This document shows, piece by piece, positions 1,569 to 26,086 of a stretch of 26,830 bases of DNA. The stretch is from a virus. The stretch spans positions 1-26,830 of IMG/VR virus record IMGVR_UViG_3300034198_011109; one strand, 5' to 3'. The notes below the pieces were generated by a model that worked only from the letters and a program-made list of their open reading frames with translations, was not told the DNA's origin and made no database searches. Each line of letters opens with the position of its first letter. The first letter of the stretch is position 1. The translations under genes were made by a program, and so were the position numbers.

Positions 1569-4500
1569 ATGTCATTGAATTTTAACACATCTCCCTATTA
1601 TGATGATTTTGATCAGACAAAGAATTTTCATCGAATTCTTTTTAAACCTGGAGTTGCGGTTCAGGCCAGAGAGTTAACTCAATCTCAAACCATTTTACAA
1701 GACCAAATTACCAAATTTGCTGACAACATTTTTAAACAAAATTCGCCTGTTACTGGTGGACAAGTAACAACCAACTTTAATTGTTATTATGTTAAACTTC
1801 AAGATACATACGCCAATGTAAATGTGGATGTAAGTAAATTTAATGGACTGTTGGTAACAGATGCAACAGGTACAGTATTGGCTCGTGTGTTGGCCGTTGC
1901 AGCGGCAACATCTGGTGACGCTCCTACTTTAGTTGTTTCTTATCTTTCAGGTAATCATTTTACCGATAATTCAGTAGTTTACGATACTGCTTCCAATTTA
2001 GCAGCTCAAGCTTTGACTGCCAATTCAACAGGAATTTCTTCTGTTGCTTCTATTTCTCAAGGCGTATTTTATGTTCTAGGTAACTTTGTACAAATTCAAC
2101 CTTCAACTATTATATTAAACAAGTATAGTTCAAGCGCCAATGCTCGAGTTGGTTTAACTATTACAGAAACCGTTGAAGATTATATTAATGATGCTTCTTT
2201 GTTAGATCCTGCTGTTGGTGCTTCAAACTATCAGGCACCTGGTGCAGACCGGTATTTAATTAGTTTAACTTTATCCAGCCGGCCATTAACTTTAGGTGAC
2301 GACCAAAACTTTATTGAATTGGTTCGTGTAACTAATGGCTCTGTTGCCAAACTGGTAGACGGTTCCGTATACAATGTAATTGATGATTATTTTGCCAAGC
2401 GAGATTATGAAACCAATGGTGATTATGTTGTTAATGATTTTAAATTAACTCCTAAATCCTACGCAGGCAACTCAGCCAAATACACAATGAGTATTGGTAA
2501 GGGAGTTGCTTATGTTCGTGGATATCGTTTAGAGAACTCTACACCAGTTGATTTGATTTCTGACCGTGCTAGAACAACCGCTTCACAAAATAATAATCCT
2601 GTTTTCATCGATGTTGGCAATTATTTTTATGTTAATAGTACCAATGGTATTTTTGATGTAACTACCACAGCAAACGTAGATTTACATTGTGTTACGGTAG
2701 CAAACGTAAGCACAACGAATGCCGCAACATATTCATCAACAGTAGTTGGTTCAGGTTATGTTCGTGAATTAATTTATGACCACAATACAATTGATGCACA
2801 ATCAAACACTTATGTTTACAGAGCATATGTTAATGATATTCAGACATCTTCACCCTCTGCAAACGTAGTTGCTGCAACCACCAATACTGTAACTTTACCT
2901 GCAACCTATTCTGCAGCAAATAATGCTTATGCTGGAGTTAATATTTCTATTATTAACGGTACAGATGCTGGAGATTTTAGAACAATCACTTCATATAATG
3001 GTGTAACTAAAGTTGCAACAGTTAATCAAAACTGGTCAATAACACCAGATGCAACTTCTGTGTTCTCTTTAAATTTTGGTATCAAAGACACACAAATAAT
3101 TGTTGGTGCTACCAAAACTTCTTACCCAGCAACAATTACGGCTTCTGCCATTATTGATCCAGAAAGTAAAGCAAACAATACTTCAACTGGTTTAACAGTT
3201 ATGCAAAATGGTGGTGCTCCAGAAATGTTGTTTAGGCTCGGAAATCCTTATGTTGCATCATTAAGTGGTACAACATACACAACACAACAACTCTGGAGAA
3301 GTGTTTCATTTGGTCTTTCTAGTGGTTCTTATACCGCTCAATTGAGTTTTACTGGCGGTTATTTAAATGTATTACGTCACATTGGAACCGTAGGCACAAC
3401 ATTATCTTCAAATGTTGTTAAACAAAATTTCTTTATTGTTGTTACTTCGGTAGGATCAGGATGTAAATTTAATGTTGGACAAGTTCTTACTTGGACTGGA
3501 GCATCTAGAACAGCTTCATTAAATTCTGATGGCTCTGTAGCCACATTAAGTGTAACTTCTGCTGATGCTGGTGGTACATTTACCGCATCTATTTTAGAAC
3601 AAGTTTACGCAGTCAATGCTGATAACTCTGGACATTTATTAAAGTATAAAAATTTAATTACTGCCAATACAACGGTAATTAATTCTTCAAATACTGCAGT
3701 TGTTACTGGAGTTTATGTTGACGATACTACTTTAACTTCTACTGGTCAGGTATACATTCAAAACTCGGCAATTGTATCACCAGGAAGTAAACAAAATTTA
3801 TATCTGTCTGATATCAAAACTGTTGTAAAAATTATTGATACTGGAAGTCCTTCATTAGCACCAACACCGGCAATGTTAAGTTCAGCAGCTTATGATGTTA
3901 CTGCTAACTTTAATTTTGATTCTGGTCAAAGAGATTCTTATTATGATCATGGTTCACTTACATTAAGACCTGGTGCACCTTCAATTAAAGGTAACATGCT
4001 TGTGTTGGTTAATTATTACCAGCATGCAGGTGGCGATGGTTACTTCTGTGTAACATCTTATTTGAATTCTTCTTTACCTGATACTTATCAATCTATACCT
4101 TCTTATAACGCTAAAGATGGTATGTTATATCAGTTGCGTGATGTAATTGACTTTAGGCCTGCTCGTAAGAATGCTCAGACAGCATTTACATATCGTCTGT
4201 CTACATCTGATACAATGCAAGGCATTTATTTACCATCAGATTTAAGTACATTTTATGGTCTGTATTCATATTATCTTGGCCGTAAAGACAAATTGGTATT
4301 AAGTAAAGATAGAAGTTTACAAATTGTTCAAGGTAATCCTTCTCTTAGTCCAATTCTTCCGGCCGAACCTGATGGTTCATTGGTAATTGCTAATTTAACT
4401 CATACTCCATATACTGGTTATGTACCAACTGAAGCACCATCAGGTGTTGTTCCTGATTTGTCAGTTGAAAAAGTTAAACACAAACGTTACACCATGCAAG

Positions 4501-7500
4501 ATATTGCTGGTCTTGAAACTCGTATCAATCAAATTGAATACTATACTTCATTAAATGCTCTTGAACAAAGTGCCACAGGCCTTCAAATTCCCGATGCATA
4601 TGGAGTAAATCGTTTTAAAAATGGTATTTTAGTTGATGACTTTTCAAGCTATGCTACAACAGATACTTTAAATCCTGATTATAATGCAACCATTAATCGC
4701 CGTCAACGTCAGTTAACTGCTGGCCAAAGTGTTCAGAATTTCCCATTAAAATCATCCGTTTTAGCGTACAATATGGGATTAATTTATAAAACTTTAGGAA
4801 ATTATAACTTAGGTTTTGAATTCAATTCTGATGGATACGTTAATTATTTTAGTTTGCCTTATACTACTGCTAATGCCGCTTCACAAGTGTTTGCTTCTCG
4901 TACCATTAATGTTAATCCATTTGGTGTTTCATTAACAACAGGTGTAACATCACTATCACCAAACGTTGATAATTGGGTTGATACAAACTATGCACCTTCA
5001 TTGTTGATTACTGATCCAAATTTACAAGTATTCCGTTCTAGTGGTAACATTAATGTGTTGACTGCAGGAGATTGGAAAACAATTTCAGGTACTACTACAA
5101 CTTCTTCAACTGGTCCTGTTGTAGGACATAATATTAATCCTTCACCATTTGGGTTTGTTGGTTATGTTGCAACACAAACAGCTTCAACAATAACTCAAGC
5201 ACAAACTAATGTTTTAGGTCCTTACGATCAAATTGGTAATACATATTCATTAAACAATGGATATATTACAGACATTTCCGTATTGCCATTTATAAGACCA
5301 CAACAAATTGTGGTTCGTGCCAAAGGTATGTTATTAAATACTCCTGTTGATTGTTATTTTGATAATATCAAAGTCAATAATTATATTCGTAGAGCCAATA
5401 GAATTGAATTAACTGGTGTCAGCGGAATATTTAATGAAGATGACGTTATTGGTTATTATAGTAGTAATGTTTTTTATCCAACAGCTCGTATATTAGGTGT
5501 GTATGTTTATACTGGTACAAATGGTACTAAAGTAAGATTGTATGTAGCTGCTGATGCTTCATCAACATCTTATACCACAAATGGTATAATTCAAAATGGA
5601 TATTTTAATACCTCTGGAACCTATGCGGCAAATACGGCAGCTGGTACACTCTCATCAACAACAGTACACGCTGGTAGATTCTCAAATGTAAGTGGTAACC
5701 AAGTAACCTTATCACCAATATCTTCTTCAACAGATATCTATTCAGGTAACACCATTTATGTTTGCGCAGGAACAGGCGCAGGACAGTCTGCTACGATTTC
5801 TTCATACAACGGCACAACCAAAGTAGCAACATTGTCCACAACGCTTTCTACAGCGAATGGAGATATATACTCGATTGGTAGTTTCACCACAAATCCTGAC
5901 GGTGCTTTCCATGCCGTCTTTAATTTGCCAGCCAATTCTTACCATACTGGCCAACGTGTGTTCCGTGTAGATAATTCATATGGTAATGCGGGTGGTGCTG
6001 CCACTACAGTTGCTGAAGGTACTTTCTATTCAGAAGGTCTACAAACAACTTCACAAGGAATAGATTTTGGTGCTTCACCATCAGGTGCTAAAGGCACATT
6101 TACACAAACCAATCAACAGACAACCACGAATATTACAACAGTTTATTCTCCATGGGATCCTGTGGCACAAACATTTATCTTCCCTAAAGATAATTATCCA
6201 AATGGTTTATTTTTAAATTCTATTTCAGTATTTTTTGCTTCAAAACCAACCTCATCGGATGCACCAATTAAACTGTCTATTGTAGGTACACAAAATGGTT
6301 ATCCAAATGGACAAACATTAGATCATTCTGTTGTTATTTTAACTCCAGAGGCAGTTAATGTTTCTACTGCTCCACAATATTTGGATAAAACAGCATCAAC
6401 AGTATTTAAATTTAGTGCTCCGGTTTATATTCAACCAGGTGTATTGTATGCTTTCATGTTACAAACATCTTCAACTGAATATACATTATGGTCTGCTTCA
6501 AATGGCGATGTTGCTTTGCCATCTTCGGTTAAGAATCTACCGAGTGATCCATCACCATCAACAATTACCAAAATTGGTTCTGCTCCATATGTTGGCGCTT
6601 TGTTTTTATCACAAAATTCTCAAACATGGACTGCTGATCAAAATCAAGATTTAATGTTTGTAATTGATCGTTGTGTATTCAACACATCGGTTACTCCAAC
6701 AATACAATATGTTTTACCTAAGAAATTACCATACCGTGCTTTGGTTGATCAAAGTTTAGATTATTTCTTAAATGCAAATAACGTTTCATCTGCAATTAGC
6801 AGTTTTGCCAATACTGACGTATATGTTGACGCATTTAATATTACCACAACTGATTTTACTCCTACAACAACAGGTATTAACTATTCTTATAATGCCACTT
6901 TAGCATCGACTGGACTACCTGCAGGCACAACAAATATTATTCCTGGCAAATTTGGTACAACAACCCAAGATGATATTTATTTAAATGACGGCAATGGTGA
7001 ACGTATATTGTTGGCCAATACAAATCAATCATTCTCATTATACGCACAGTTAAGTACATTTGATAATGCAGTTTCTCCAATCGTTTCTGACGCTGGTTTA
7101 TCCGTTTATGCAATTAGATGGAATATTAATAACTGTGAATTGTCAAACTCTGTAATCACTTTAGTCAATGGCGGTACAGGTTATAGTAATAATACGACCG
7201 GTAACGTAACAGTTTCTATTTCTGCACCAACAGGTACAGGCGGTGTACAAGCATATGCGGCAGCTAACGTACAAAACGGCAACGTAGTTTCTGTTTATGT
7301 TACATCCGGTGGTTCAGGATATATTGCAACACCAACAATTACAATCAATGACGCAAACACCACTCCAGGTTCAGGTGCCAATGTATCAATAACTGGTGAA
7401 ACATCTAAAACTGGTGGTAATGCTCTTGCTCGTTATGTCACCAAGAAAGTTGTATTGGATCAAGGATTTGATTCTGGTGATTTGAATGTATACCTTACTG

Positions 7501-8074: not shown

Positions 8075-11000
8075 TACAGTTTCTATTCTAAGTTATGCTA
8101 ACACCTTTGGCGATTGGGTAGTCACAACCAATGCTTTGGTAAGAGAAAATAACACACTAGCGGCCAACAATTATACCAAAAGTATCGGTACTTTATTTCT
8201 TAGTGACCCTACATTGGGTTTACAAGTCGCAAACAATTCTATTTTTGGTGGTCAACTTCAATCACAAGGCCTTGGTTCTTCTGTAATAATTCAAAACAAT
8301 CTTACTGTTAGTCAAGGTCAAATCTATTTTTCAAACACAGCATTAGGTTTAAACAATGCCGGTCAAATGATTGTTGGTGGTTTGTTAAATGTTAATGGTT
8401 CTGGTTTAGGCATTTCTGTTTTAAACAATTCTCAACTAAATGGTTACTTGTCAGTATTAGGTAATACGGCTATTGCCAACACATTAAGTGTTACTGGTAC
8501 AACCACAATTTCAAACAATACATTCATTAGTGGTAACGCTCAAGTTACCGGCAACGTCATTGCTCAAAATTATGTTAACGTAACTAAAGATGTTAACGCA
8601 ACCAATTTTAATGCAACAAATAACTTTAATGGTTATGGTTTAAATATTACCAATAACGGCAATATTGATAATGTTTTGTCTGTTGGCAACCAATCGAATC
8701 TTAGTGGTAACGTTTTTGCTGGTAATAATATTACTTCAACGGGTACAGTAACAGCGGCTAGCGTCACTGCAAACAATATTATTAATACTCCTTTATTGAA
8801 TGTTAGTACTTCAGCATATGTAAACGGCACATTGTATGCAGGTAATCATATTGGTAATACATTGTATGCAAACTCAATCAATGCCAATAATACCATTAAT
8901 GTTCCATTGTTAAATGTTTCTGGTGCTACATACACCAATACATTGAACGCTAATAACACTATTAATACTGCTCTACTAAATTCTAGTGGACCAACCTTTA
9001 CTAGTACACTTAATGCTAACAACACAATCAATACTCCTTTATTGAATGTTTCTGGATCCACATATACTAATACATTAAACTCCAATAACACCATCAACAC
9101 CGCCACATTAAATGCTTCTGGTACAGCATATGTAAATGCTTTGACATCTAATGGTGCAATTTCTGGTACAACAATTGGTGGTACTAATTTAACATTGAGT
9201 GGAACAACTCTTAGTGCCACTAATGTTACAGGTAGTTTTTCAGCATTAACAACAACTGGTTCTGTAACTGTCGGTGGTAATTTTATTATTACTGGACAAA
9301 CTGTTTACGCAACCAATACATTCACTCTTAGTGCTGGTGTTGGTTCACCAATCACTTCATACTTTAATGTGTATCGTCCAGCAGCTTCAAATGCTTCGAT
9401 TCGTTGGAATGAAACTCAACAATATTTTGAATTAAATGACGTTAATAATGGAAATTATTACAGAATTCATACAGACGAATATTCAAGTGACACCACTTAT
9501 AATTATGGTTCAAAAAATATTGCCACTTCAAATGCAGTATCATATTTACAAGGTGTTGCTAATACAGCAAATAGTAATTTAACAACCAACGTAAACACAT
9601 TAAATTCAAATATTACCGCTAACGTAAGCACATTAAATTCAAACATAACGGCCAACGTTAATACATTAAATTCAAATATTACCGCTAATGTTACTACTAC
9701 CGTAAGCACATTAAATTCAAATATTACTGCTAACGTTAATACATTAAATTCAAATATTACTGCTAATGTTACAACATTACAAAGCAATATTAATAATGCA
9801 AATGCTAATGCAGCAAACGCCACCTACTTAACCAACGGAACATTACCTGCTGCTAGATTACCAGCTTCTGGTGTGACTGCTGGATATTGGGGTGGAACGA
9901 CACAAATTCCAGTATTGAATATTGATTCTACTGGTCGTGTAATATCCGCTGCTAATGCTTCTGTATCATCTACTTTATCCACGGCAGGTTCTAGTGGTAC
10001 AGGTAGTGTATCGTTAATTAATCAAACTCTGACAGTTACATCGTCAAATACCAATATTGTTACAGTAGTTAATTCTGGTCAAACATTAACTGTTACTCCA
10101 CAAACTTCTGGTGCCTCATTTGGTAATTACGGTTCAAGTACGGCTATTCCTGTATTGACTGTTGATACTTTTGGTCGTGTGACTAACATAACAACGACAG
10201 CAATTTCAACATCAATTGCACTTGCTGGTGGATCAGGTACCGGTTCAGTTGCTGGTGGCGGTACATTAACCATTAACGGTAGTACAGGTCTAACAACATC
10301 TGTAACAGGTAGTACATTTACACTCACAAATTCTGGTGTTACTTCTTTAACAGGAACAACAAATCAAATTTCTGTTTCAGGTTCTACTGGCGGTGTAACA
10401 TTATCATTACCTCAAAACATTAATTCTGGTGCTGCTCCAACATTTGCTGGTACAAACTTCACAAGTATTCCTAATGGTGCTTTAACAAATTCAACCATTT
10501 CTGGTATCTCTCTTGGTAGCAATTTAAATAGTTTAACCATGAATAACGGTGGTGCTGGTGCAGCTTCAGGTACCACATTTAATGGTTCTACCGCTCAAAC
10601 TATTTCGTACAACACCATTGGTGCTTCACCTTTAGCCGGATCAAGTAGCTTAACTACAGTAGGTACTATTGGTACCGGTACTTGGCAAGGTTCTTCAATA
10701 GCAACCACCTATACTGCCGCCAAAGTAACTGACGTTCAAGCAGGTACTGGTGTGTCTGTAGGTAGTACAACAGGTTCTGTAACAGTTAATATTGGTCAAG
10801 CAGTTGGCACATCTGCCGCAGTTACTTTTGGTAGTTTAAATGTTGGTTCTGCAACAGGTTCCACTACAGGCCAAATTCGTGCTTCCGATAATATTACTGC
10901 TTATGCATCTTCTGATAAGAAATTTAAAGAAAATATTGAAGATATTCCAAATGCGTTAGATACTATTGATGCAATTGGTGGTAAATTGTTTGATTGGACT

Positions 11001-11219
11001 GATGCTTATTTGGAAGCACATGGTGGTGAAGATAGTTACTTTAATCAAAAACAAGATTTTGGTGTCATTGCTCAAGATGTTCAAACCGTATTCCCAAGAG
11101 CCGTTCGAACAAGAGAAGATGGTTCTTTGGCGGTAGATTATGAAAAATTAGTTGCTTTGTCATTTGCAGCAATTAAAGAACTCAAAGCTGAAATAGAGGT
11201 ATTGAAGTCAACTAAATAA
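8067..11219 (+). CDS. Long tail fibre with C-terminal S74 intramolecular chaperone/autoprotease
   Basis: The 1050-residue fibre has a tail-attachment-like N-terminus (SILSYANTFGDWVVTTNALV, TGTLFL-type motif, GLQVANN). It continues with short beta repeats (about 268-355), a domain with YFNVYRPAASNASIRWNETQ near 428-450, an 11-residue-repeat shaft (508-578) and Gly/Thr/Ser-rich beta repeats. It ends in a Peptidase_S74 domain (about 949-1050: SDKKFKENI, FGVIAQDVQTVFP, DYEKLVALSFAAIKELK). In this family the C-terminal domain helps the fibre trimerise and then cuts itself off at a conserved Ser using a nearby Lys. By the S-x4-K pattern these should be Ser949 and Lys954, releasing about 102 residues. 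The start at 8067 is preceded by AGAAGG and overlaps the previous gene. Role: host-surface binding at the virion tail. Confidence 0.88.
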   Translation: MANTVSILSYANTFGDWVVTTNALVRENNTLAANNYTKSIGTLFLSDPTLGLQVANNSIFGGQLQSQGLGSSVIIQNNLTVSQGQIYFSNTALGLNNAGQMIVGGLLNVNGSGLGISVLNNSQLNGYLSVLGNTAIANTLSVTGTTTISNNTFISGNAQVTGNVIAQNYVNVTKDVNATNFNATNNFNGYGLNITNNGNIDNVLSVGNQSNLSGNVFAGNNITSTGTVTAASVTANNIINTPLLNVSTSAYVNGTLYAGNHIGNTLYANSINANNTINVPLLNVSGATYTNTLNANNTINTALLNSSGPTFTSTLNANNTINTPLLNVSGSTYTNTLNSNNTINTATLNASGTAYVNALTSNGAISGTTIGGTNLTLSGTTLSATNVTGSFSALTTTGSVTVGGNFIITGQTVYATNTFTLSAGVGSPITSYFNVYRPAASNASIRWNETQQYFELNDVNNGNYYRIHTDEYSSDTTYNYGSKNIATSNAVSYLQGVANTANSNLTTNVNTLNSNITANVSTLNSNITANVNTLNSNITANVTTTVSTLNSNITANVNTLNSNITANVTTLQSNINNANANAANATYLTNGTLPAARLPASGVTAGYWGGTTQIPVLNIDSTGRVISAANASVSSTLSTAGSSGTGSVSLINQTLTVTSSNTNIVTVVNSGQTLTVTPQTSGASFGNYGSSTAIPVLTVDTFGRVTNITTTAISTSIALAGGSGTGSVAGGGTLTINGSTGLTTSVTGSTFTLTNSGVTSLTGTTNQISVSGSTGGVTLSLPQNINSGAAPTFAGTNFTSIPNGALTNSTISGISLGSNLNSLTMNNGGAGAASGTTFNGSTAQTISYNTIGASPLAGSSSLTTVGTIGTGTWQGSSIATTYTAAKVTDVQAGTGVSVGSTTGSVTVNIGQAVGTSAAVTFGSLNVGSATGSTTGQIRASDNITAYASSDKKFKENIEDIPNALDTIDAIGGKLFDWTDAYLEAHGGEDSYFNQKQDFGVIAQDVQTVFPRAVRTREDGSLAVDYEKLVALSFAAIKELKAEIEVLKSTK
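8868..9131 (+). repeat. Four tandem 66-base (22-residue) repeats in fibre 1
   Basis: Residues 268-289, 290-311, 312-333 and 334-355 follow one pattern, TNTLNANNTINTxLLNxSGxTY, with few changes. The DNA copies are diverged mainly at third positions. Alternating hydrophobic residues with Asn and Ser/Gly turns suggest a repeated triple-beta shaft. The long reverse-strand open frames here are by-products of the repeat. Confidence 0.8.
9588..9800 (+). repeat. 33-base (11-residue, hendecad) repeats in fibre 1 shaft
   Basis: Residues 508-578 are built from six near-copies of NVNTLNSNITA. The hydrophobic residues Leu, Ile and Val are spaced 4, 4 and 3, which is the hendecad pattern of a slightly right-handed coiled coil. 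A four-residue insertion (NVTT) between the third and fourth copies keeps a hydrophobic spacing of 4, so it acts as a stutter and not a break. At the DNA level the core ACATTAAATTCAAATATTAC recurs with one- or two-base changes, which makes the tract prone to copy-number change. Confidence 0.85.
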
Positions 11220-17976: not shown

Positions 17977-19611
17977 ATGGCATTAACAAGACCAAGTATT
18001 AATTTAATATCGAGTGGTATTACCACTTCTAATCTTGTTATTAGTAATACAACACCAGCAACCTCAAATATTACTGGTGCTTTAGTTGTTTCTGGTGGTG
18101 TTGGTATTGCCGGAAATGTGTATGCGGCCGCAATATATTCTAATGGTATTTTAGTTGATACCAGCAATGCTAATACAGTATACATTAAAGCTGGATTGGA
18201 TTCAGCTAATGCTAATATAGCAATTTTATTTGGTACTGATGTAAGCCAGAATAATCGCATGTCGATTATTGAAGGAACGGATGTAAGCCAAAATGCTAGA
18301 ATGGCCATTATTGAAGGTGTTGATGTTACACAAAACACCAACATTTCTAATAAATTATCATTAACTGGTTCACTTAATCAAACTGTTAGTGGTAATGTGA
18401 CAATCAGCCAAGATTTAATTGTTTCTGGTAATTTGATACTTACTGGTAATATTAACTCTCAAAACGTTCAACAACTGGCGGTAGCCGATCCATTAATTTT
18501 ACTTGGTCTTGGTAACTATTTAAGCGATACTAAAGATATTGGTTTTGCTGCTCATTATAATGATGGCACAAATGCACATGCTGGATTAATTCGTGATTCA
18601 GGAACAAAAGAATTTTATGTATTTCAAGGATATATTCCTGAAGTAGATGCAACCAATAATATTGATATTAATGATGTTTCATTTGTTAAAGCAAACTTAA
18701 ATGCTGGTTATGTAAAATCAAATTTAATTGCTACAACGGCAGTAGTTAATGGATTAGAACTTTATAATTATTCTACCGCCGTTTATGCACAGGCCAACGT
18801 AACTGCAGGTGGATTAATTACTGCCAATGCTAATACAGCAATTACTCAAGGCGTGGACTTAACTCAAAATACTAATATTGCTTTATTACAAGCTGGATTA
18901 ATCACAGCCAATGCTAATGGTGTTGCTACTGATGGTAAAATGCAATCAGCATATAATCAAGCTAACGTTACTGCTGGCGGACTTATAACGGCTAACGCTA
19001 ATACAGTTTATATCAAAGCTGGATTGGATTCAGCAAATGCTAATATTGTTTCATTACAAGCATTAGCTAATAGCGATTATACTACATTAACATCATCTAC
19101 TGGAACTTTTGGTAGTGGATCATTAGTGCCCGTTGTTACTATAGCCGCAAATGGTCGTGTGACTAACATTACAACAACTTCTGTATCGGGTGGAGGTGGC
19201 GGAAGTTCTTCCAATAGTTTCTCTGTAATTAAAGTTTCTGGTCAACCAGATTTAATTGCAAACACTCCAAACTCACCATTAACATTGGTTGCTGGATCAG
19301 GTATTATACTTTCATCAGTTGGTACATCCAATACATTAACGATTGCTTCTACCAGTGGTTTCTCTGGTGGTACTATTGCAAATCAATTAATCGTTGCTAA
19401 TAGTAATACATCAACATCAACAACTACTGGTGCATTACAAGTACAAGGTGGTGTAGGTATTACGGGTAATGCATATTCTAATGCGATATATACTAATGGA
19501 CTTTACTATGCTGCCAATAATCAACCTATACCAATTGGTGGCGGTAGTGGCGGATCATCAATTACAATAGGACAAGTAACTGCAATAGCAATGGGCTTTG
19601 CGTTACCATAA
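17977..19611 (+). CDS. Tail fibre protein (third fibre) with 14-residue modules
   Basis: The 544-residue protein starts with ALTRPSINLISSGITTSNLV and a GALVVSGGVGIAGNVY turn cassette. It then has 14-residue coiled-coil-like units (71-126) and a beta cassette ending in a block recurrent in marine T4-like fibres (ADPLILLGLGNYLSDTKDIG with HAGLIRDSGTKEFYVF). A second set of 14-residue units follows (277-360), then a Gly/Ser-rich linker (SGGGGGSSSN) and a final GALQVQGGVGITGN cassette. There is no S74 chaperone and no obvious C-terminal receptor domain. The C-terminus (GGGSGGSSITIGQVTAIAMG) is short and Gly-rich, so the tip may be supplied by other proteins. The Shine-Dalgarno is weak (CGGAAAA). 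The following genes code for a virion protein and three glycine-rich paralogues, plausible tip proteins. Confidence 0.82.
   Translation: MALTRPSINLISSGITTSNLVISNTTPATSNITGALVVSGGVGIAGNVYAAAIYSNGILVDTSNANTVYIKAGLDSANANIAILFGTDVSQNNRMSIIEGTDVSQNARMAIIEGVDVTQNTNISNKLSLTGSLNQTVSGNVTISQDLIVSGNLILTGNINSQNVQQLAVADPLILLGLGNYLSDTKDIGFAAHYNDGTNAHAGLIRDSGTKEFYVFQGYIPEVDATNNIDINDVSFVKANLNAGYVKSNLIATTAVVNGLELYNYSTAVYAQANVTAGGLITANANTAITQGVDLTQNTNIALLQAGLITANANGVATDGKMQSAYNQANVTAGGLITANANTVYIKAGLDSANANIVSLQALANSDYTTLTSSTGTFGSGSLVPVVTIAANGRVTNITTTSVSGGGGGSSSNSFSVIKVSGQPDLIANTPNSPLTLVAGSGIILSSVGTSNTLTIASTSGFSGGTIANQLIVANSNTSTSTTTGALQVQGGVGITGNAYSNAIYTNGLYYAANNQPIPIGGGSGGSSITIGQVTAIAMGFALP
18187..18354 (+). 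repeat. Four 14-residue units, fibre 3, first block
   Basis: Residues 71-126 are KAGLDSANANIAIL, FGTDVSQNNRMSII, EGTDVSQNARMAII and EGVDVTQNTNISNK. They are two-heptad units of the same types found in fibre 2; the first unit is repeated almost base for base around 14065-14110. Confidence 0.8.
18805..19056 (+). repeat. Six 14-residue units, fibre 3, second block
   Basis: Residues 277-360 are six in-register units: AGGLITANANTAIT, QGVDLTQNTNIALL, QAGLITANANGVAT, DGKMQSAYNQANVT, AGGLITANANTVYI and KAGLDSANANIVSL. All six unit types also occur in the fibre 2 shaft or beside it. Confidence 0.8.
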
Positions 19612-19634: not shown

Positions 19635-20399
19635 ATGGCAGGAAATCAAGCACCCATTTATTCGAGAGTAGGCGACATTGAAGGCTCAGTAATTTTAACA
19701 ACGGCAGCTGCTGATTATACCGGTAACAACGTTAATAATACTATTGTGTATCAAGCAGATCCAACCAACGGTGGATTTATTCAGCGTTTAAGATTTAAGG
19801 CTCTTGGTACTAACGTTGCAACTGTTGCTCGTATATATCTCAATGAAGGATATCCGGCACTTACGACACAAGCTTTGGTACCAGGAACTCCTACTGCATC
19901 ACTTAGTGGTACTGGTGGTGCATTACAAGTTGGTAGTTATTATGCGGTAGTTCAATCAATTGACCAATACGGACAACCATCACAGTTTTCAGCAGAAAGT
20001 ACAGTAGCAAACACAACATCTAATACATCAACAATTACATTTTCTTGGGCTGGTGCCACAGGCGCTAATACATATCGTTTATTTGTTGGTCCATCTCCTA
20101 GTGGTGAAGTAATTTATTTTCCGGTATCAGGAAATACAACATCATATACTGTGGCAAACGTTGTTCCTAATTTAGTAACAAACTTACCATCACAAGGTCA
20201 ACCAAAAGACTTTGTTAGCGTTAATATGTTTTATGGTGAAGTTTCTTTACCAGCAACTACTGCAACACAAACTGCGGCAACAACTGACGTAGATTATCCA
20301 ATGAATATTGCATTACCCCCTGGTTATCACGTTCTTGTTGGATTAGGAACTACTGTTGCTGCTGGTTGGACTGTAACGGCAATTGGTGGTGCATATTAA
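19635..20399 (+). CDS. Virion protein with a fibronectin-like domain nested inside it
   Basis: The 254-residue protein consists of an outer beta domain split in two. Residues 1-72 contain NGGFIQRLRFKALGTNVATV and end in ARIYLNEG; residues about 192-254 contain FYGEVSLPATT, YPMNIALPPGYHVLVGLG and AAGWTVTAIGGAY. These two halves together match the plan of a common small phage virion protein in which the two parts are joined by a short loop. Here about 119 residues intervene, and their pattern (GSYYAVVQSIDQYGQPSQFS, then TITFSWAGATGANTYRLFVG) is that of a fibronectin type III-like sandwich. AGGAG at 19622-19626 lies 8 bases before ATG. It is coded between fibre 3 and the glycine-rich genes. The role is probably structural or in surface attachment. 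Confidence 0.72.
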   Translation: MAGNQAPIYSRVGDIEGSVILTTAAADYTGNNVNNTIVYQADPTNGGFIQRLRFKALGTNVATVARIYLNEGYPALTTQALVPGTPTASLSGTGGALQVGSYYAVVQSIDQYGQPSQFSAESTVANTTSNTSTITFSWAGATGANTYRLFVGPSPSGEVIYFPVSGNTTSYTVANVVPNLVTNLPSQGQPKDFVSVNMFYGEVSLPATTATQTAATTDVDYPMNIALPPGYHVLVGLGTTVAAGWTVTAIGGAY

Positions 20400-20401
20400 C
20401 A

Positions 20402-21853
20402 ATGCTGGATCTTAATCATGTTCTTGCGACTCCAGGTTTAGATTCACAGTATTTTCAAGGACCTGGATGGGTAACATCACCCACAGCAATAACTATTTCT
20501 TCGATGGCTCCTGCTGGCGCTTTATTTCTAGCCTCAGGTAACTATCAAGTTGGTCAAGCAATTCAAATTACTGGTAATTATTTACCAGGTACCATTACTG
20601 GCTACACATCCGGTGCTATCTATTATATTCTCACCGTGAACGGATCAACAATTCAAATCAGTGCAAGTCCTGGTGGTGCTCTAGTAACATCATCGTTTAC
20701 GAACATAACTGATGTTACTGTGGCAACTGGCGGCGTTTTAACTGTATCTGCTGGAGATTGGAAAGTTGGTCAACCAATTACTATAACAGGTACATTTACC
20801 GCAGGTTCTATTACTGGTTATGTGTCTGGTACCACTTATTATATTATCACAGTTACCAGCACAACATCAATTACTATTAGTGCAACTCTAGGTGGTTCAG
20901 CAGTAACATCAACTGCGGGTACTGCGACTCCGGGAGCTACATTTACTGTTGTTGGTGATGCAACAGTAAGCGTACTGATTCCGCAATGGCAAACTTGGCG
21001 TAAACCTCGTGGAATTAAATGGATTTATATGTTAGGTGTAGGTGGTGGGGCGTCTGGTGGATGTGGAGTGAATACAGCAACAACATCGGGTGGTGGAGCA
21101 GGAGGTGGTGGCGGTGGACAAACAACATTAATGATTCCAGCAATGTTTGTTCCTGATATTCTTTATATTGCTGCCGGTAATGGTGGACCAGCGCAAAATA
21201 CAAGTGGTGCAGTTGGTCTTGGTGGAACTCCAACTTACATATCTATTGAACCAAATACAGGAATGGATTTAAATAAAAATTTATTTTGGGCAAATCCTGG
21301 TACTATTACTGGTTCTGCAGCTACTGCTACAACAGGTGGTGGTACTGGAGTTCTTGCGACAGCAGCAACAATTGGTTATATGCCATTAGCTGGACGAGGA
21401 TTATATAATTTACAGACAGCCGCAGCAGGTCCTGGCGCAGGAGGTTCGCCGAATGCTGTTGGGGGCGATATTAGTAATGCTCCAAATACAGGAAACGTGA
21501 GTTTTCCCGGTAGTGGTGGTGGTGGCACTAGCGGTGCTGGTGGTGGAATTGGCCAATCGGGCTTGATTTTAGGACAAGATTTTTACCCTCTCTTGTCTAC
21601 TGGAGCAGCAGCAGCATCAGGTTCAACTCCAGCAGTAGATGGACAAGGTGGTTTTATTGCAAATCATTTTATATTTAATGGTGGTGGTTGTGGTGGCGGA
21701 GGTGCAACTACTACTGCAGGTGGTATTTCTGGACGTGGTGGTAACGGAACACCTGGATCGGGTGGCGGAGGTTCAGGTGGTGCAACTACAACAAATCCTA
21801 ATGTACAATCTGGTGCAGGCGGGCCAGGTTTTGTTCTTATATTAAGTTGGTAA
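20402..21853 (+). CDS. Glycine-rich adhesin-like protein A (first of three paralogues)
   Basis: The start chosen is the ATG at 20402 (483 residues), because it gives MLDLNHVLATPG, which matches MLDFNHVLSTPG and MLDFNHILSTPG of the two paralogues; an upstream in-frame ATG at 20366 would overlap the previous gene. Residues about 29-172 hold two 72-residue beta repeats missing from the paralogues. From about 195 the shared domain begins (QWQTWRKPRG, hydrophobic strand, then GGGAGGGGGG and IPAMFVPDILYI), with further glycine clusters to the C-terminal GPGFVLILSW. A 'W-x-K-P-x-G plus hydrophobic strand plus poly-Gly' plan is typical of glycine-rich phage fibre-tip domains. Poly-Gly stretches framing variable loops recall gp38-type adhesins with polyglycine helices. 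Host binding is inferred. Confidence 0.75.
   Translation: MLDLNHVLATPGLDSQYFQGPGWVTSPTAITISSMAPAGALFLASGNYQVGQAIQITGNYLPGTITGYTSGAIYYILTVNGSTIQISASPGGALVTSSFTNITDVTVATGGVLTVSAGDWKVGQPITITGTFTAGSITGYVSGTTYYIITVTSTTSITISATLGGSAVTSTAGTATPGATFTVVGDATVSVLIPQWQTWRKPRGIKWIYMLGVGGGASGGCGVNTATTSGGGAGGGGGGQTTLMIPAMFVPDILYIAAGNGGPAQNTSGAVGLGGTPTYISIEPNTGMDLNKNLFWANPGTITGSAATATTGGGTGVLATAATIGYMPLAGRGLYNLQTAAAGPGAGGSPNAVGGDISNAPNTGNVSFPGSGGGGTSGAGGGIGQSGLILGQDFYPLLSTGAAAASGSTPAVDGQGGFIANHFIFNGGGCGGGGATTTAGGISGRGGNGTPGSGGGGSGGATTTNPNVQSGAGGPGFVLILSW
20488..20919 (+). repeat. Two 216-base (72-residue) beta-domain repeats in protein A
   Basis: The motifs YQVGQAIQITG...GTITGYTSGAIYYILTV...IQISASPGGA and WKVGQPITITG...GSITGYVSGTTYYIITV...ITISATLGGS recur at a spacing of 216 bases. 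This 'VGQ-I-ITG...ITGY-SG-YYI...IS-GG' sandwich-like module is found in many phage structural proteins. Confidence 0.78.
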
Positions 21854-21854
21854 A

Positions 21855-22853
21855 ATGTTAGATTTTAATCACGTTCTTTCTACTCCAGGCGCAGATATTC
21901 AGTATTTTACTGCTGTCAGCTCAGCCGCTCGATCCATTAGCCAAAATGGACAACAATGGCAAACTTGGCGTAAACCTAGAGGTTGTAAATTTATTTATAT
22001 GATAGTAGTAGGTGGTGGGGGTTCTGGTGGATGTGGAGTGAATACCGCAACAACATCAGGTGGTGGTGGAGGAGGTGGTAGTGGTGGACAAACAACATTA
22101 ATGATTCCAGCAATGTTTCTTCCTGATGTTCTATACATTCAATGTGGTATGGGCGGTAGACAACCAGCAACATTAACAAGTGGTGCTACTGGTGTTGCTG
22201 GGATTGGTACAATGGCTATATGTGAACCTAATAGTAGTTCAAGTCAATTAATTGTAATAAATGCTAATGGCGGTGGTGGTGGTGGTGCAGCAAGTACTAC
22301 TGCTGCTGGTGCTGCTGGTACTGCTGGAGCTACAATTCAACTTAACGCAACACCATTTTTGGGACGAGGAATATTTAGAATTTATGCTGGCCAAGTCGGC
22401 GCCACCGGTGGTAACGGTACTGCGGGTACTGCTGGTACTAGTGTAACATTACCAACAACAGGCCCAATGGTCACAGGTGGTAGCGGTGGTGGAGGAAAAA
22501 CCGCAACCGTGTTTGGTGCAGGCTCAGTAATTACTATGCCCACAGGTGGTGTTAGCACAGGTTCTTCTGATTTCTTTCCATTGACTGGAACAACACCGGC
22601 AGCTGCTACAGGTGCAACGCCAGCTGCCGCAGGACAAGATGGAATAATTGTAAGAAATATGTTAATGAATTTTGGTGGTGGTGGAGGTGGCGCAGCTTCA
22701 GAAACATCAGGTGGTATTGCTGGTGCTGGTGGTAACGGAGCTCCAGGTTGCGGTGGTGGTGGTGCTGGTGGATCCTCATCAACTACAGGCGTAACAACAC
22801 TAGCAAGACCAGGTGATGGCGGCGATGGTTTTATTTACATTATAAGTATATAA
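21855..22853 (+). CDS. Glycine-rich adhesin-like protein B (second paralogue)
   Basis: The 332-residue protein shares the N-terminal LDFNHVLSTPG, the QWQTWRKPRGCKFIYMIVVG strand block (from residue 34), a glycine cluster (GGGGGGGSGG), and TTLMIPAMFLPDVLYIQCGMG. The middle differs in sequence from A and C, with its own glycine clusters (NANGGGGGGAAST, TGGSGGGGKT). The C-terminal part is shared again: NFGGGGGGAASETSGGIAG, GNGAPGCGGGGAGG and DGFIYIIS. Cysteines recur at positions shared with A or C. It begins one base after the A stop and ends one base before the C start, with little Shine-Dalgarno signal, so translation is probably coupled. Expected role: fibre-tip or virion-surface adhesin, with the variable middle as candidate receptor contact. 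Confidence 0.75.
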   Translation: MLDFNHVLSTPGADIQYFTAVSSAARSISQNGQQWQTWRKPRGCKFIYMIVVGGGGSGGCGVNTATTSGGGGGGGSGGQTTLMIPAMFLPDVLYIQCGMGGRQPATLTSGATGVAGIGTMAICEPNSSSSQLIVINANGGGGGGAASTTAAGAAGTAGATIQLNATPFLGRGIFRIYAGQVGATGGNGTAGTAGTSVTLPTTGPMVTGGSGGGGKTATVFGAGSVITMPTGGVSTGSSDFFPLTGTTPAAATGATPAAAGQDGIIVRNMLMNFGGGGGGAASETSGGIAGAGGNGAPGCGGGGAGGSSSTTGVTTLARPGDGGDGFIYIISI

Positions 22854-22854
22854 T

Positions 22855-23823
22855 ATGTTAGACTTTAACCATATTCTTTCTACTCCAGGTTATGACTTTC
22901 AACAGTTCATTGGAACTGCTAGTGCTACTATAGGTACAGGATCCGGTGGCCAACAATTACAAACTTGGAGAAAACCAAGAGGTATAAATTGGGTTTACAT
23001 CATTGGCGTAGGTGGCGGTGGATCAGGAAGTGTTGGTGGTAGAGCAGCTGCTACTGCTGGTGGAGGTGGTGGTGGAGGTTCAGGCGGTCAAACAACATTA
23101 TTAATACCCGCCAGTATGATTCCAGACACACTCTATATTCTTGCTGGTCAAGGTGGTATTTCTGGAACAACTGTTGCTCTTGCGGGTACAGCAGGAACTC
23201 CAACATATGTATTAATTGAACCTGATACAACACTCACAGTTAATCTTACTTTATTACTTGCGAATGGTGGTTCTCCAGGTGGCGCTGAAGCAAATGGTGG
23301 TAGTCCTGGTGGTACTGGTGGTACATCTGTAACCATTGCCAATATGCCATTGGCAGGCAGAAGCGCATACAACTTTTTTGGAGGACAAACAGGTGGTACA
23401 GGTGGTAGCAGAGCAGCTGGTGCTGGTGCAGCTATTTCAATACCCACAACAGGATTGATGGTCACAGGTGGCCAAGGTGGTGGTGGCGGAGGTAATACGC
23501 CAAATGCTGGCAATGGATTTCTCGCTAGCACAGGTTCACTAGGTCAAGATTTTTTCCCCAATACAACAGGGGGAACGCAAAGTGTTAGTGACCTGCCAGC
23601 ACCAGCAGGATCTCCTGGTTTTATTAGTCGTAACTTTTTGATGAATTTTGGTGGTTCAGGCGGTGGCGGCTCAAGTTCGATTACAGGTGGCATAGCAGGT
23701 GCTGGCGGTGATGGTGCACCAGGATGTGGCGGTGGCGGTGCAGGTGCTTCAAACTCAAATAATCCTACAGTATCACCGGCAGGTAACGGTGGACCAGGAT
23801 TTGTTTATATCATTTCATTCTAA
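22855..23823 (+). CDS. Glycine-rich adhesin-like protein C (third paralogue)
   Basis: The 322-residue protein follows the same plan: LDFNHILSTPGYDFQQF, QLQTWRKPRGINWVYIIGVG near residue 34, GGGGGGGSGGQTTLLIPASM, a variable middle (NGGSPGGAEANGGSPGG), MPLAGRSAYNFFGGQ, and a C-terminal block NFGGSGGGGSSSITGGIAG with APGCGGGGAGA and GFVYIISF. Compared with B, the loop after the first glycine cluster has lost the CGVNTATTS sequence shared by A and B and reads VGGRAAATA. It is the last gene before the gp13 promoter. The three proteins could form alternative or mixed tips on one of the fibres; which fibre is unknown. Confidence 0.75.
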   Translation: MLDFNHILSTPGYDFQQFIGTASATIGTGSGGQQLQTWRKPRGINWVYIIGVGGGGSGSVGGRAAATAGGGGGGGSGGQTTLLIPASMIPDTLYILAGQGGISGTTVALAGTAGTPTYVLIEPDTTLTVNLTLLLANGGSPGGAEANGGSPGGTGGTSVTIANMPLAGRSAYNFFGGQTGGTGGSRAAGAGAAISIPTTGLMVTGGQGGGGGGNTPNAGNGFLASTGSLGQDFFPNTTGGTQSVSDLPAPAGSPGFISRNFLMNFGGSGGGGSSSITGGIAGAGGDGAPGCGGGGAGASNSNNPTVSPAGNGGPGFVYIISF

Positions 23824-23865: not shown

Positions 23866-23879
23866 CACAGGAGATATTG

Positions 23880-24653
23880 ATGGCTACCATTACCAACAGA
23901 CAAGATTTTATTGATTATTGCAAGCGTAGGCTTGGATTTCCCGTCATCGAAATTAACGTGGATGACGACCAGGTTAATGACCGTATCGATGACGCACTTC
24001 AATATTTTCAGGATTATCATTTTGATGGACTTCAAAAGGTCTATTGGATTAAAGTACTTAATAATACCGATATTGCAAACCGGTATTTGGATGCCAGCCA
24101 AGCAAAAGATTCTCAGGGAAATAATTTAGAAATTGCTGGTATTTCTCGTATATTCCCAATATCCGATTCTCAAGCAAACGTTAATATGTTTGACCTTCGT
24201 TATCAACTTCGTTTAAATGAGTTGTATGACTTTACTTCCGCATCATACATCAATTATACTTTAACAAATCAACACTTACGCTCTCTAGAAATTATGTTTA
24301 CTGGAGAAGTTCCTATTCGATTCCAAAGACATACTCAAAGATTGTATATTGATTGGAATTGGGGTAATTCTGAAGCTCCTACTGGTACAGTTGTTATCGC
24401 TGAAGCGTATGCTTTGATTAATCCGGATGTTTATAATTTGGTATGGAATGACCGTTGGTTGAAAGAGTATGCCACAGCACTTATTAAAAGAACTTGGGGT
24501 AACAATATGGCTAAGTTTGATAACATTCAATTACCGGGCGGAGTTACATTGAATGGCGGAAGAATTCTTCAAGAAGCTACGACAGAAATTGAGCGTCTTG
24601 AAAGAGAGATGGAAAATAATTACGGAAGTCCTTTAGAATTTTTTATGAATTAA
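23880..24653 (+). CDS. gp13: Neck protein, T4 gp13-like
   Basis: The 257-residue product is clearly of the gp13 type: ITNRQDFIDYCKRRLGFPVI, then EINVDDDQVNDRIDDALQYF at about 25-45, a central block with FDLRYQLRLNELYDF, the strand RFQRHTQRLYIDWNWG, and a C-terminal region with WLKEYATALIKRTWGNN and a terminal helix (ERLEREMENNYG). In T4, gp13 (309 residues) and gp14 complete the neck between the portal and the tail. ATG at 23880 is preferred over the adjacent in-frame TTG at 23877, because AGGAG at 23869-23873 is then 6 bases away. It is transcribed from the late promoter at 23851. The C-terminus looks natural, so the following HNH gene has not cut into it. Confidence 0.9.
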   Translation: MATITNRQDFIDYCKRRLGFPVIEINVDDDQVNDRIDDALQYFQDYHFDGLQKVYWIKVLNNTDIANRYLDASQAKDSQGNNLEIAGISRIFPISDSQANVNMFDLRYQLRLNELYDFTSASYINYTLTNQHLRSLEIMFTGEVPIRFQRHTQRLYIDWNWGNSEAPTGTVVIAEAYALINPDVYNLVWNDRWLKEYATALIKRTWGNNMAKFDNIQLPGGVTLNGGRILQEATTEIERLEREMENNYGSPLEFFMN

Positions 24654-24654
24654 T

Positions 24655-25200
24655 ATGTACCATAAACACCACATTATACCTCGACATATGGGTGGATCCG
24701 ATGATCCATCTAATTTAATTAAGTTAACAATACCAGAACATGCTGAAGCTCATCGTGTTTTATGGGAAACACATGGAAAAATAGAAGATTACTATGCTTG
24801 GCAAGGATTATTAGGCAATGTAACAGGTTATGAAATATTAAAAGGAATAATGGGATCTGAAAAAATGAGAAACCATCTTTCCAAAAAAGGCAAAGAATAT
24901 TGGAATACTTTATCTGAAGAAGAAAAAAATAAAAAACTTGAAAAATTTAATGCATCAAAAATAGGTAATAAACACGCATTAGGTAAAACTTGGACGTTAT
25001 CAGAACAATCTAAAAACAATGTTGCAGAATCAAAAAGTGTAAATTGGTTGATAACTTTTCCTAATGGTAAAAAAGAAATTATAAAAAACATGAATAAATT
25101 TTGTAGGGATAATGGTTTAGATCAAGGCGCTATGTCTAATGTTGCCAAAGGTTTAAAAAGTCACCATAAAAACCATTTATGCCAAAAGGTAGGAACCTAA
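24655..25200 (+). CDS. HNH homing-type endonuclease inserted between gp13 and gp14
   Basis: The 181-residue protein has an HNH core at its very start (HKHHIIPRHMGGSDDPSNLI, then KLTIPEHAEAH), with His6, Asn20 and His29/His33 as likely catalytic and metal-site residues. A Lys-rich middle (about 75-125) contains a NUMOD3-like patch (GNKHALGKTWTLSEQSK). The C-terminal part (WLITFPNGKKEIIKNMNKFC, then GLDQGAMSNVAKG and HHKNHLC) resembles the small DNA-binding repeats of phage homing endonucleases. Such enzymes cut alleles lacking the insertion and spread by repair. It starts one base after the gp13 stop with no Shine-Dalgarno, and is visibly richer in A than its neighbours. The gene breaks the otherwise contiguous gp13-gp14 pair. 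No intron or intein boundary is seen. Confidence 0.85.
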   Translation: MYHKHHIIPRHMGGSDDPSNLIKLTIPEHAEAHRVLWETHGKIEDYYAWQGLLGNVTGYEILKGIMGSEKMRNHLSKKGKEYWNTLSEEEKNKKLEKFNASKIGNKHALGKTWTLSEQSKNNVAESKSVNWLITFPNGKKEIIKNMNKFCRDNGLDQGAMSNVAKGLKSHHKNHLCQKVGT

Positions 25201-25204: not shown

Positions 25205-26086
25205 GCAACCAACCATTATTTTAGCAATTATAATAGCAAATATTCAGAGCAAAGATTAGTTGAAGATTTGTTGGTTGAGTCCATAAAAATTATGGGCTTT
25301 GATGCTTATTATTTGGCAAACACAAATGATGAAGCTAGAGACCTTTTATACGGTGAAGATCCAGTTAAGAAATTTCAATCTGCATATGTGGTTGAAATGT
25401 ATATGTCCAGCATTATGGAATATTCTGGTGAAAGAGAATTGTTTTCTAAATTTGGTTTAGAAATTAAAAACAACATGGAAGTGGTTGTGTCTAAAAGATC
25501 ATTTTCACAAAGAGTTCCACAAAACCTTTTTACACGACCAAGAGAAGGTGATTTAGTTTACATACCTTTTGGTAACGGCACAGGTGAACTTTTTGAAATT
25601 ACTTTTGTTGAGCAGAACAAAGATATGATGATGTTAGGCCGTAAATATCCATTCTTCTATGAAATGCGTTTAGAGAAATTCAAGTATGCTCAAGAAGTCA
25701 TTAATACTGGTATACCAGACATTGATATTGCTATGGACAATTCAGCATATTCAATTGATTTACAATTAGGTTCTGGTGTAGGCAGTTATGTATCAAAAGA
25801 AATTGTATATCAATCACATGACGGCACTTTAGCCAATGCAACCACTTCAGCTATGGTACAAAGTTGGAACGATCCAACTAATACATTAATAGTTACTAAT
25901 ATTGCTGGAGAATTTGTAGACGGACAAACAATCATTGGCGCATCAAGTGGTGCATCTTATTATTTGTCAACTTACGATCCACTAGCAACAAGTATTCACA
26001 ATGAAATTTACGATAATAAACTGATAGAAAATAATGCCAATTCAGTTATTGACTTTTCAGAAACTAATCCGTTTGGAAGCATATAA
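25202..26086 (+). CDS. gp14: Neck protein, T4 gp14-like, with apparent ATC start
   Basis: Read from ATC the product is 294 residues and starts (M)ATNHYFSNYNSKYSEQRLVE-DLLVESIKIMGFDAYYL, the usual opening of gp14 proteins in aquatic T4-like phages. Further support comes from AYVVEMYMSSIMEYSGEREL, the block RPREGDLVYIPF near 112-123, LFEITFVEQNKDMMMLGRKY, YEMRLEKFKYAQEVINTGIP near 150-170, and a C-terminal Gly/Ser beta segment. In T4, gp14 (256 residues) joins gp13 in the neck and contacts the tail terminator. The first conventional start, TTG at 25268, would remove 22 residues, including the SEQRLVEDL helix, and has no good Shine-Dalgarno. Its stop overlaps the gp15 ATG (TAATG). A natural G-to-C change, a rare AUC start, or a sequencing error are all possible. 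Confidence 0.82.
   Translation: MATNHYFSNYNSKYSEQRLVEDLLVESIKIMGFDAYYLANTNDEARDLLYGEDPVKKFQSAYVVEMYMSSIMEYSGERELFSKFGLEIKNNMEVVVSKRSFSQRVPQNLFTRPREGDLVYIPFGNGTGELFEITFVEQNKDMMMLGRKYPFFYEMRLEKFKYAQEVINTGIPDIDIAMDNSAYSIDLQLGSGVGSYVSKEIVYQSHDGTLANATTSAMVQSWNDPTNTLIVTNIAGEFVDGQTIIGASSGASYYLSTYDPLATSIHNEIYDNKLIENNANSVIDFSETNPFGSI

Follow-up and report, generated by a model that had tools for sequence, protein, structure and literature searches.

Does a phage that carries three adjacent genes for glycine-rich adhesins build one receptor-binding fibre tip from all three products, mount them as separate spikes, or hold them as a stock of alternative binders? The question is raised by a 26,830-base contig (IMG/VR virus record IMGVR_UViG_3300034198_011109; this whole stretch is "the window") that encodes T4-like baseplate and neck proteins as well as three such adhesins, here called A, B and C (table 1). 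Our analysis favours the first answer, in which A, B and C are distinct receptor-binding subunits carried on one fibre tip, most likely as an A:B:C heterotrimer, and we put the probability of this reading at about one half.

The adhesin genes and their products

A, B and C are encoded by paralogous genes that follow one another directly (protein C shares 53% identity with B and 50% with A). They form a tightly packed run, in which the gene for a protein that we call MP is separated from A by 2 nucleotides, and A from B and B from C by 1 nucleotide each. The N-termini of A, B and C read MLDLNHVLATPG, MLDFNHVLSTPG and MLDFNHILSTPG, respectively. The shared N-terminal motif, the W-R-K-P-R-G block, the glycine clusters and the C-terminal G-x-G-G-x-G-F-x-x-I-x-S block that an initial annotation of this DNA had described are present in all three, and the likeness is not one of composition alone because many of the invariant alignment columns are not glycine. 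The annotation was also right that the three differ between the clusters, as identity among them is 0.39–0.41 in mid-protein and 0.70–0.85 in the scaffold block. Its extent (20402–23823) does take in three adjacent open reading frames (ORFs), but the unit begins upstream, with the fibre gene at 17977–19611 ("fibre 3") and MP; MP (the jelly-roll-like protein encoded between fibre and adhesins), the conserved C-terminus of the fibre protein and the 174-residue insert in A had been left out of the description. The resemblance between the scaffold blocks of A (20984–21169) and B (21954–22139) likely reflects gene conversion inside the array. A second, otherwise nearly identical contig, L001 (L numbers denote related loci), encodes A, B and C without any difference in protein sequence, and its DNA is exactly the same for several kilobases around them; its fibre 3 gene (4955–6757) is longer through an extra repeat block and encodes 600 residues, as against 544 here.

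Structures were predicted for single chains of C and MP, and A and B were placed by family alignment. The AlphaFold2 (AF2) model of C, made with an alignment of 72 sequences, has a predicted local distance difference test score (pLDDT) of 88.9 and a predicted template modelling score of 0.88, although residues 1–4 are below 50 and the first ten average 47. In it C is confidently modelled as a polyglycine-helix bundle, with glycine-rich extended segments on a base like that of tumour necrosis factor (TNF), the "TG" fold. Foldseek and VIA-align match it to Bxb1 gp33 (Z 20.8) and Pam3 gp24 (Z 16.8), and more weakly to the TG domains of ALK/LTK (Z 8–11) and the snow-flea antifreeze protein (Z 5.5). 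The polyglycine fold on which the initial annotation had staked its proposal was thus obtained for C as a monomer. By family alignment A and B belong to the same polyglycine family; B and C score 33.0 and 31.2 bits against Pfam PF21722 (Gly_rich_2), whose cut-off is 24.3, and A has no match to it above the cut-off. At E ≤ 0.001 this Pfam family is matched by 59 of the 74 members of the adhesin family.

Over 70 glycine-rich relatives, the glycine clusters have a pairwise identity of 0.68 and the W-KPRG and C-terminal strands one of 0.47–0.49; the segments between clusters reach 0.35, and the linker that follows the N-terminal tag 0.24. This profile and the fold of C agree with the idea of a scaffold of polyglycine whose inter-cluster segments vary, and the loops of the relatives have indeed diverged more than the clusters. 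That contrast is lost, however, when Gly/Gly pairs are excluded (0.22 in the clusters and 0.26 between them), so it is chiefly the glycines and the end strands that carry the picture of a conserved frame with variable loops.

Number and distribution of the arrays

A search with MP retrieved well over a hundred loci; about 180 carry MP, nearly all with glycine-rich genes directly behind it. Loci were chosen mainly by MP, so the counts given here cover MP-associated arrays; they come from mechanical ORF calls on metagenome contigs, in which glycine-rich members were recognized by hidden Markov model, and complete arrays were dereplicated by the C-terminus of MP. Such arrays contain one gene in 59 loci, two in 30 and three in 53 (none in two loci); of the arrays with more than one gene, roughly 60% have three. 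A complete fourth glycine-rich gene follows none of the 53 three-gene arrays. The loci fetched last, which lay outside the training of the model, gave 9, 13 and 25 arrays of one, two and three genes. L101 was counted as a three-gene array with its gene a frameshifted. L095, also among the 53, was first scored as having four genes, owing to a 92-residue fragment 417 nucleotides downstream of its third gene; this region (10767–11100), to judge by its translation, is the frameshifted relic of a fourth gene's C-terminal part. On the MP tree of the first locus set the three-gene state needs 12 changes, at least 4 of them forced by well-supported branches; the effective sample is smaller than the locus count because the loci are related.

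MP itself occurs once in 177 loci, three times in three and never twice; in the three exceptions (L142, L145 and L147) three tandem MP genes are followed by one or two glycine-rich genes. In 50,697 phage records MP matched, at the sensitivity of this search, only ten Rhodobacter capsulatus siphophages (the RcC phages). A tblastn search of cultured phages with A, C and a relative's adhesin found nothing, though low-complexity masking may hide glycine-rich matches. A scan of genome contigs gave only one bacterial locus, L088 of Zavarzinella formosa DSM 19928, with a single glycine-rich gene; this module perhaps sits in a prophage.

The upstream fibre gene and MP

At related loci of many phages, the slot of fibre 3 is taken by genes with matches to tail-fibre and collagen-like minor tail PHROGs. 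At their extreme C-terminus these genes before MP share a consensus, approximately T-L/I-G-x-x-L/Y/V-A-x-x-x-G-W/L/M/F-A/N-M/L-P, which is kept whatever the length of the carrier gene (about 60 to 2300 amino acids (aa)). A leave-one-out profile of this peptide scores above 6 in 74% of the 85 dereplicated genes that directly precede MP and in 0.1% of 1029 other ORFs, and the only other ORF above 8, in L138, also lies upstream of MP, with another ORF intervening. In the window fibre 3 scores 27.6 (it is itself in the profile), and the other genes of the fibre region −7 to −47. In a wider set, G at position −13 together with A, T, V or S at −9 is found in 77 of 117 genes before MP as against 32 of 1580 others, and in 28 of 41 at the loci fetched later. 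The natural reading is that this would be a docking peptide for MP.

An MP relative directly before a glycine-rich gene was seen first in L002, L005 and L006 and then in nearly all related loci. The model of MP has a jelly-roll-like core with an insert resembling immunoglobulin (Ig) or fibronectin type III (FN3) domains. No match to MP was found in Pfam or NCBIfam, and none that convinces among the PHROGs; its matches to PDB sequences are chance ones only. The best jelly-roll-like fold matches reach Z 8–9. An attempt to name a relative of MP from its fold was abandoned, as matches at Z 6–9 are too unspecific and the matching viral models are mostly nameless.

Position-specific copies and tags

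In a tree of 197 proteins the first, second and third genes group by position within clades (an 11-locus clade, an 8-locus clade, L105/L106/L151, L161/L163 and several pairs), and the triplication appears to have happened separately in different clades. A recent amplification of A, B and C was considered and ruled out, since the copies are position-orthologous between phages. When positions were shuffled within phages, the observed orthology was reached in none of 2000 trials in two clades, for tag and body alike, and in 14 and 7 of 2000 in the clade that contains A, B and C. The ratio of nonsynonymous to synonymous substitution rates is mostly 0.1–0.5 at all positions (one pair has 0.8 and one is undefined), which indicates purifying selection in most pairs; of the copies, the third has usually diverged most.

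The initial annotation had suggested that the shared N-terminal tag may be the docking signal. The tag is conserved between phages, but it is subunit-specific: in the 11-locus clade, tags at the same position in different phages have an identity of 0.73, those at different positions 0.39 and those within one phage 0.40, and the corresponding values for the body are 0.55 (same position) and 0.38 (different positions). What chiefly sets the tags of a second clade apart is the choice of K, R or Q in ...VD(K/R/Q)Q.... The tags of A, B and C resemble different positional types in relatives (table 1), that of B being overall no closer to gene a of L105, L106 and L151 than to some others, and it is suggestive only that the array might hold one of each type in the order b-a-c. 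Tag and body are separable, because inserts occur at their junction, as in A, in gene b of L107 and in gene a of L015. The last (3506–7282) encodes a glycine-rich adhesin of 1258 amino acids in which the junction is occupied by Laminin_G_3 repeats.

One tip or several

We prefer a hetero-oligomeric tip to the alternatives because of the tight packing of the genes, the ceiling of three, the stable and distinct copies and the subunit-specific tags. A, B and C would be made together from one gene run and would jointly form the tip of the fibre 3 protein (17977–19611), whose C-terminal peptide would be held by MP. The N-terminal tags would place each subunit at its own site on MP or its neighbours, so that a three-fold fibre would be capped by one A:B:C heterotrimer (and, in single-gene phages, by a homotrimer), and the inter-cluster loops would touch the host surface; we infer the contacts, the stoichiometry and the receptor binding of these proteins. 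A tip made of different subunits was among the suggestions of the initial annotation, and the ceiling of three, the orthology by position and the purifying selection speak for it, just as the fibre families matched by the genes upstream of MP bear out its placing of the array at the end of fibre cassettes. More tentatively, the whole may be a widespread and exchangeable three-layer tip, in which any fibre that carries the C-terminal peptide could receive the jelly-roll adaptor and an obligate heterotrimeric cap with one subunit of each tag type. Several points weigh against the shared tip. The structure models are of single chains of C and MP; the equivalent sites of a symmetric fibre do not require different tags, so that a chain or separate docking fits the tags equally well; and the triple is dispensable over evolution, since L096, with one gene, lies inside a three-gene MP clade. 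In addition, gene a of L101 is frameshifted (really or by sequencing error), the related loci are not independent, and the host-contact role of A, B and C is assigned by analogy.

The main rival is a set of separate spikes, in which each of the three proteins would form its own (homo-)oligomer and dock by its own tag at a different place on the tail or on a different fibre. The tags would suit this, as they are subunit-specific and conserved between phages and the contig encodes several fibres. We nevertheless consider separate spikes unlikely, as the C-terminal peptide is confined to the fibre before MP (27.6 as against −7 or lower elsewhere in the fibre region) and an exact ceiling of three would have no simple reason. 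That sharp ceiling tells equally against a stock of alternative binders, another suggestion of the initial annotation, in which A, B or C would occupy the same site and give a broad or switchable host range. The inter-cluster segments do differ strongly among the three and gene number does vary among relatives, but the tags differ by position, the order of the copies is kept within clades under mostly purifying selection, the genes are packed for co-expression and the region has no good inverted repeats; we regard such a stock as quite improbable. A structural or decorative role, as head or neck fibres or chaperone-like caps, has the position of the array on its side, just before the gp13-like genes both here and in T4-like relatives such as L012, a slot that in T4 is occupied by wac. 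The fold matches of MP moreover include capsid jelly-rolls, all weak, and phrog_863, which B and C match, is labelled "tail fiber assembly". This role is very improbable all the same, since many phages have, before MP, a gene with a match to tail-fibre or collagen-like minor tail families, the Rhodobacter phages have MP and a glycine-rich gene as a pair between a tail gene and the holin, and C folds like proteins of a fibre tip (Pam3) and of a tail brush (Bxb1).

Other features of the window

The gp13-like and gp14-like neck genes are separated by an HNH homing-endonuclease gene (24655–25200; phrog_655, 4.8e-18). Phase variation by inversion was considered and is improbable: the only inverted pair seen in the array region is imperfect and lies within glycine-rich coding sequence. 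As for a diversity-generating retroelement, the contig covers 26.8 kb, and a reverse transcriptase may be encoded elsewhere in the genome.

Table 1. Coordinates of the adhesin array, its upstream partners and neighbouring T4-like genes in the window
Feature	Position	Strand	Remarks
Fibre 3 gene, proposed tip carrier	17977-19611	+	544 aa; last gene before MP; repeat-rich, fibre-like
Fibre C-terminal peptide ITIGQVTAIAMGFALP, proposed docking peptide	19561-19608	+	leave-one-out profile
MP, jelly-roll-like, proposed adaptor	19635-20399	+	254 aa; AF2 pLDDT 85.3
MP Ig/FN3-like insert	19860-20219	+	residues 76-195; many relatives lack it
Glycine-rich adhesin A	20402-21853	+	483 aa; ORF and family alignment; ATG at 20402
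A tag MLDLNHVLATPGLDSQYF	20402-20455	+	most like the b-type tag of L105 gene b (0.89)
A insert, tag to body	20456-20977	+	174 aa; internal repeat; homologous insert in L105 gene b
A scaffold block	20984-21169	+	DNA 88% identical to B 21954-22139, well above the rest of the genes
Glycine-rich adhesin B	21855-22853	+	332 aa; ATG at 21855; PF21722 8e-8, over cut-off
B tag MLDFNHVLSTPGADIQYF	21855-21908	+	PGADIQYF common to gene a of L105, L106 and L151
Glycine-rich adhesin C	22855-23823	+	322 aa; ATG at 22855; PF21722 2.8e-7, over cut-off
C tag MLDFNHILSTPGYDFQQF	22855-22908	+	most like L151 gene c (0.94)
Wedge subunit (T4-like baseplate)	168-1559
gp13-like neck gene	23877-24653
gp14-like neck gene	25268-26086		nearest: cyanophage gp14, 37% identity

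Implications

Polyglycine adhesins are known from fibre tips, and the breadth of their occurrence in phages has been described as an interesting problem (PMC13243795). The present set of well over 100 loci adds to it a recurrent tip kit, made up of a ceiling of three paralogues, a fibre peptide motif and a proposed adaptor family without a name in the libraries searched. If the three subunits do share one tip, one fibre would present three binding surfaces and could read three surface features, and the peptide and the adaptor would account for the transfer of the cap between unrelated fibres. The C-terminal peptide motif also offers a simple sequence handle for the receptor-binding proteins of uncultured phages.

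Comparison with known systems

The known part of this system is the polyglycine adhesins of the gp38, Pam3 and Bxb1 type, while for MP the libraries searched gave no match to a family with a name. The cultured parallels found are the RcC phages, in which MP and a glycine-rich protein likewise form a pair (gp24–gp25 of RcBaka and equivalents) and the upstream gene ends in a similar C-terminal peptide, HGLSLALGAGAFIN; there, unlike here, the glycine-rich gene is single. The host range of RcOceanus differs from that of its relatives (PMC8601537). A link between adhesin and host range was looked for among these phages and dropped, as the adhesin of RcOceanus is nearly as in its relatives and that of RcBaka is the outlier; no hypervariability among close relatives was seen in the RcC adhesins. 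The glycine-rich gene (1902–2801) of one of these loci, L173 (Rhodobacter phage RcMamaDuck, OP009278), contains DVYKRQ, which can be encoded by GATGTGTATAAGAGACAG, a sequence that we take to be part of the Tn5/Nextera mosaic end, and this is probably leftover adapter in the public record.

The gp38 adhesins of T-even phages (S16, 6F45, and PP01) resemble A, B and C in having a polyglycine scaffold with variable loops at the fibre tip (PMC12892980), whereas the present arrays comprise between one and three paralogues and come with an additional jelly-roll protein. None of the 74 family members matches Pfam GP38 at E ≤ 0.001, and 6F45 is absent among the matches listed for C, which do include chains described as sharing its fold. 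Bxb1 gp33, Pam3 and S16 gp38 have been grouped as such helical bundles in a 2026 paper (PMC13243192). The closest fold is that of Bxb1 gp33, the "tail wing brush" (9D93), which matches C over 217 residues with 31% identity in the structural alignment, its sequence match being weak (E 0.039); gp33 belongs to the tail tip of this mycobacteriophage, and the part of its description available to us mentions no MP-like partner. Three consecutively numbered gene products, gp35, gp36 and gp37 of mycobacteriophage Mysterious, form a heterotrimeric baseplate accessory complex (PMC13252515), to which A, B and C are likened by description and not by sequence or fold.

A precedent for trimers of this fold is Pam3 gp24 (7YPX/7YFW), the homotrimeric fibre tip of a cyanophage with a contractile tail (a myophage), in which a TNF-like and a glycine-rich domain match C over 194 residues. 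Pam3 uses one gene, whose product docks by an N-terminal helical domain of its own, and has in addition a separate chaperone (PMC9608196). The model of C has no N-terminal helix of the kind that forms the Pam3 docking bundle (residues 1–12 are of low confidence and 14–19 form a strand). In the arrays described here there are instead one to three genes, a short tag would take the place of the helix, and a jelly-roll protein is encoded upstream.

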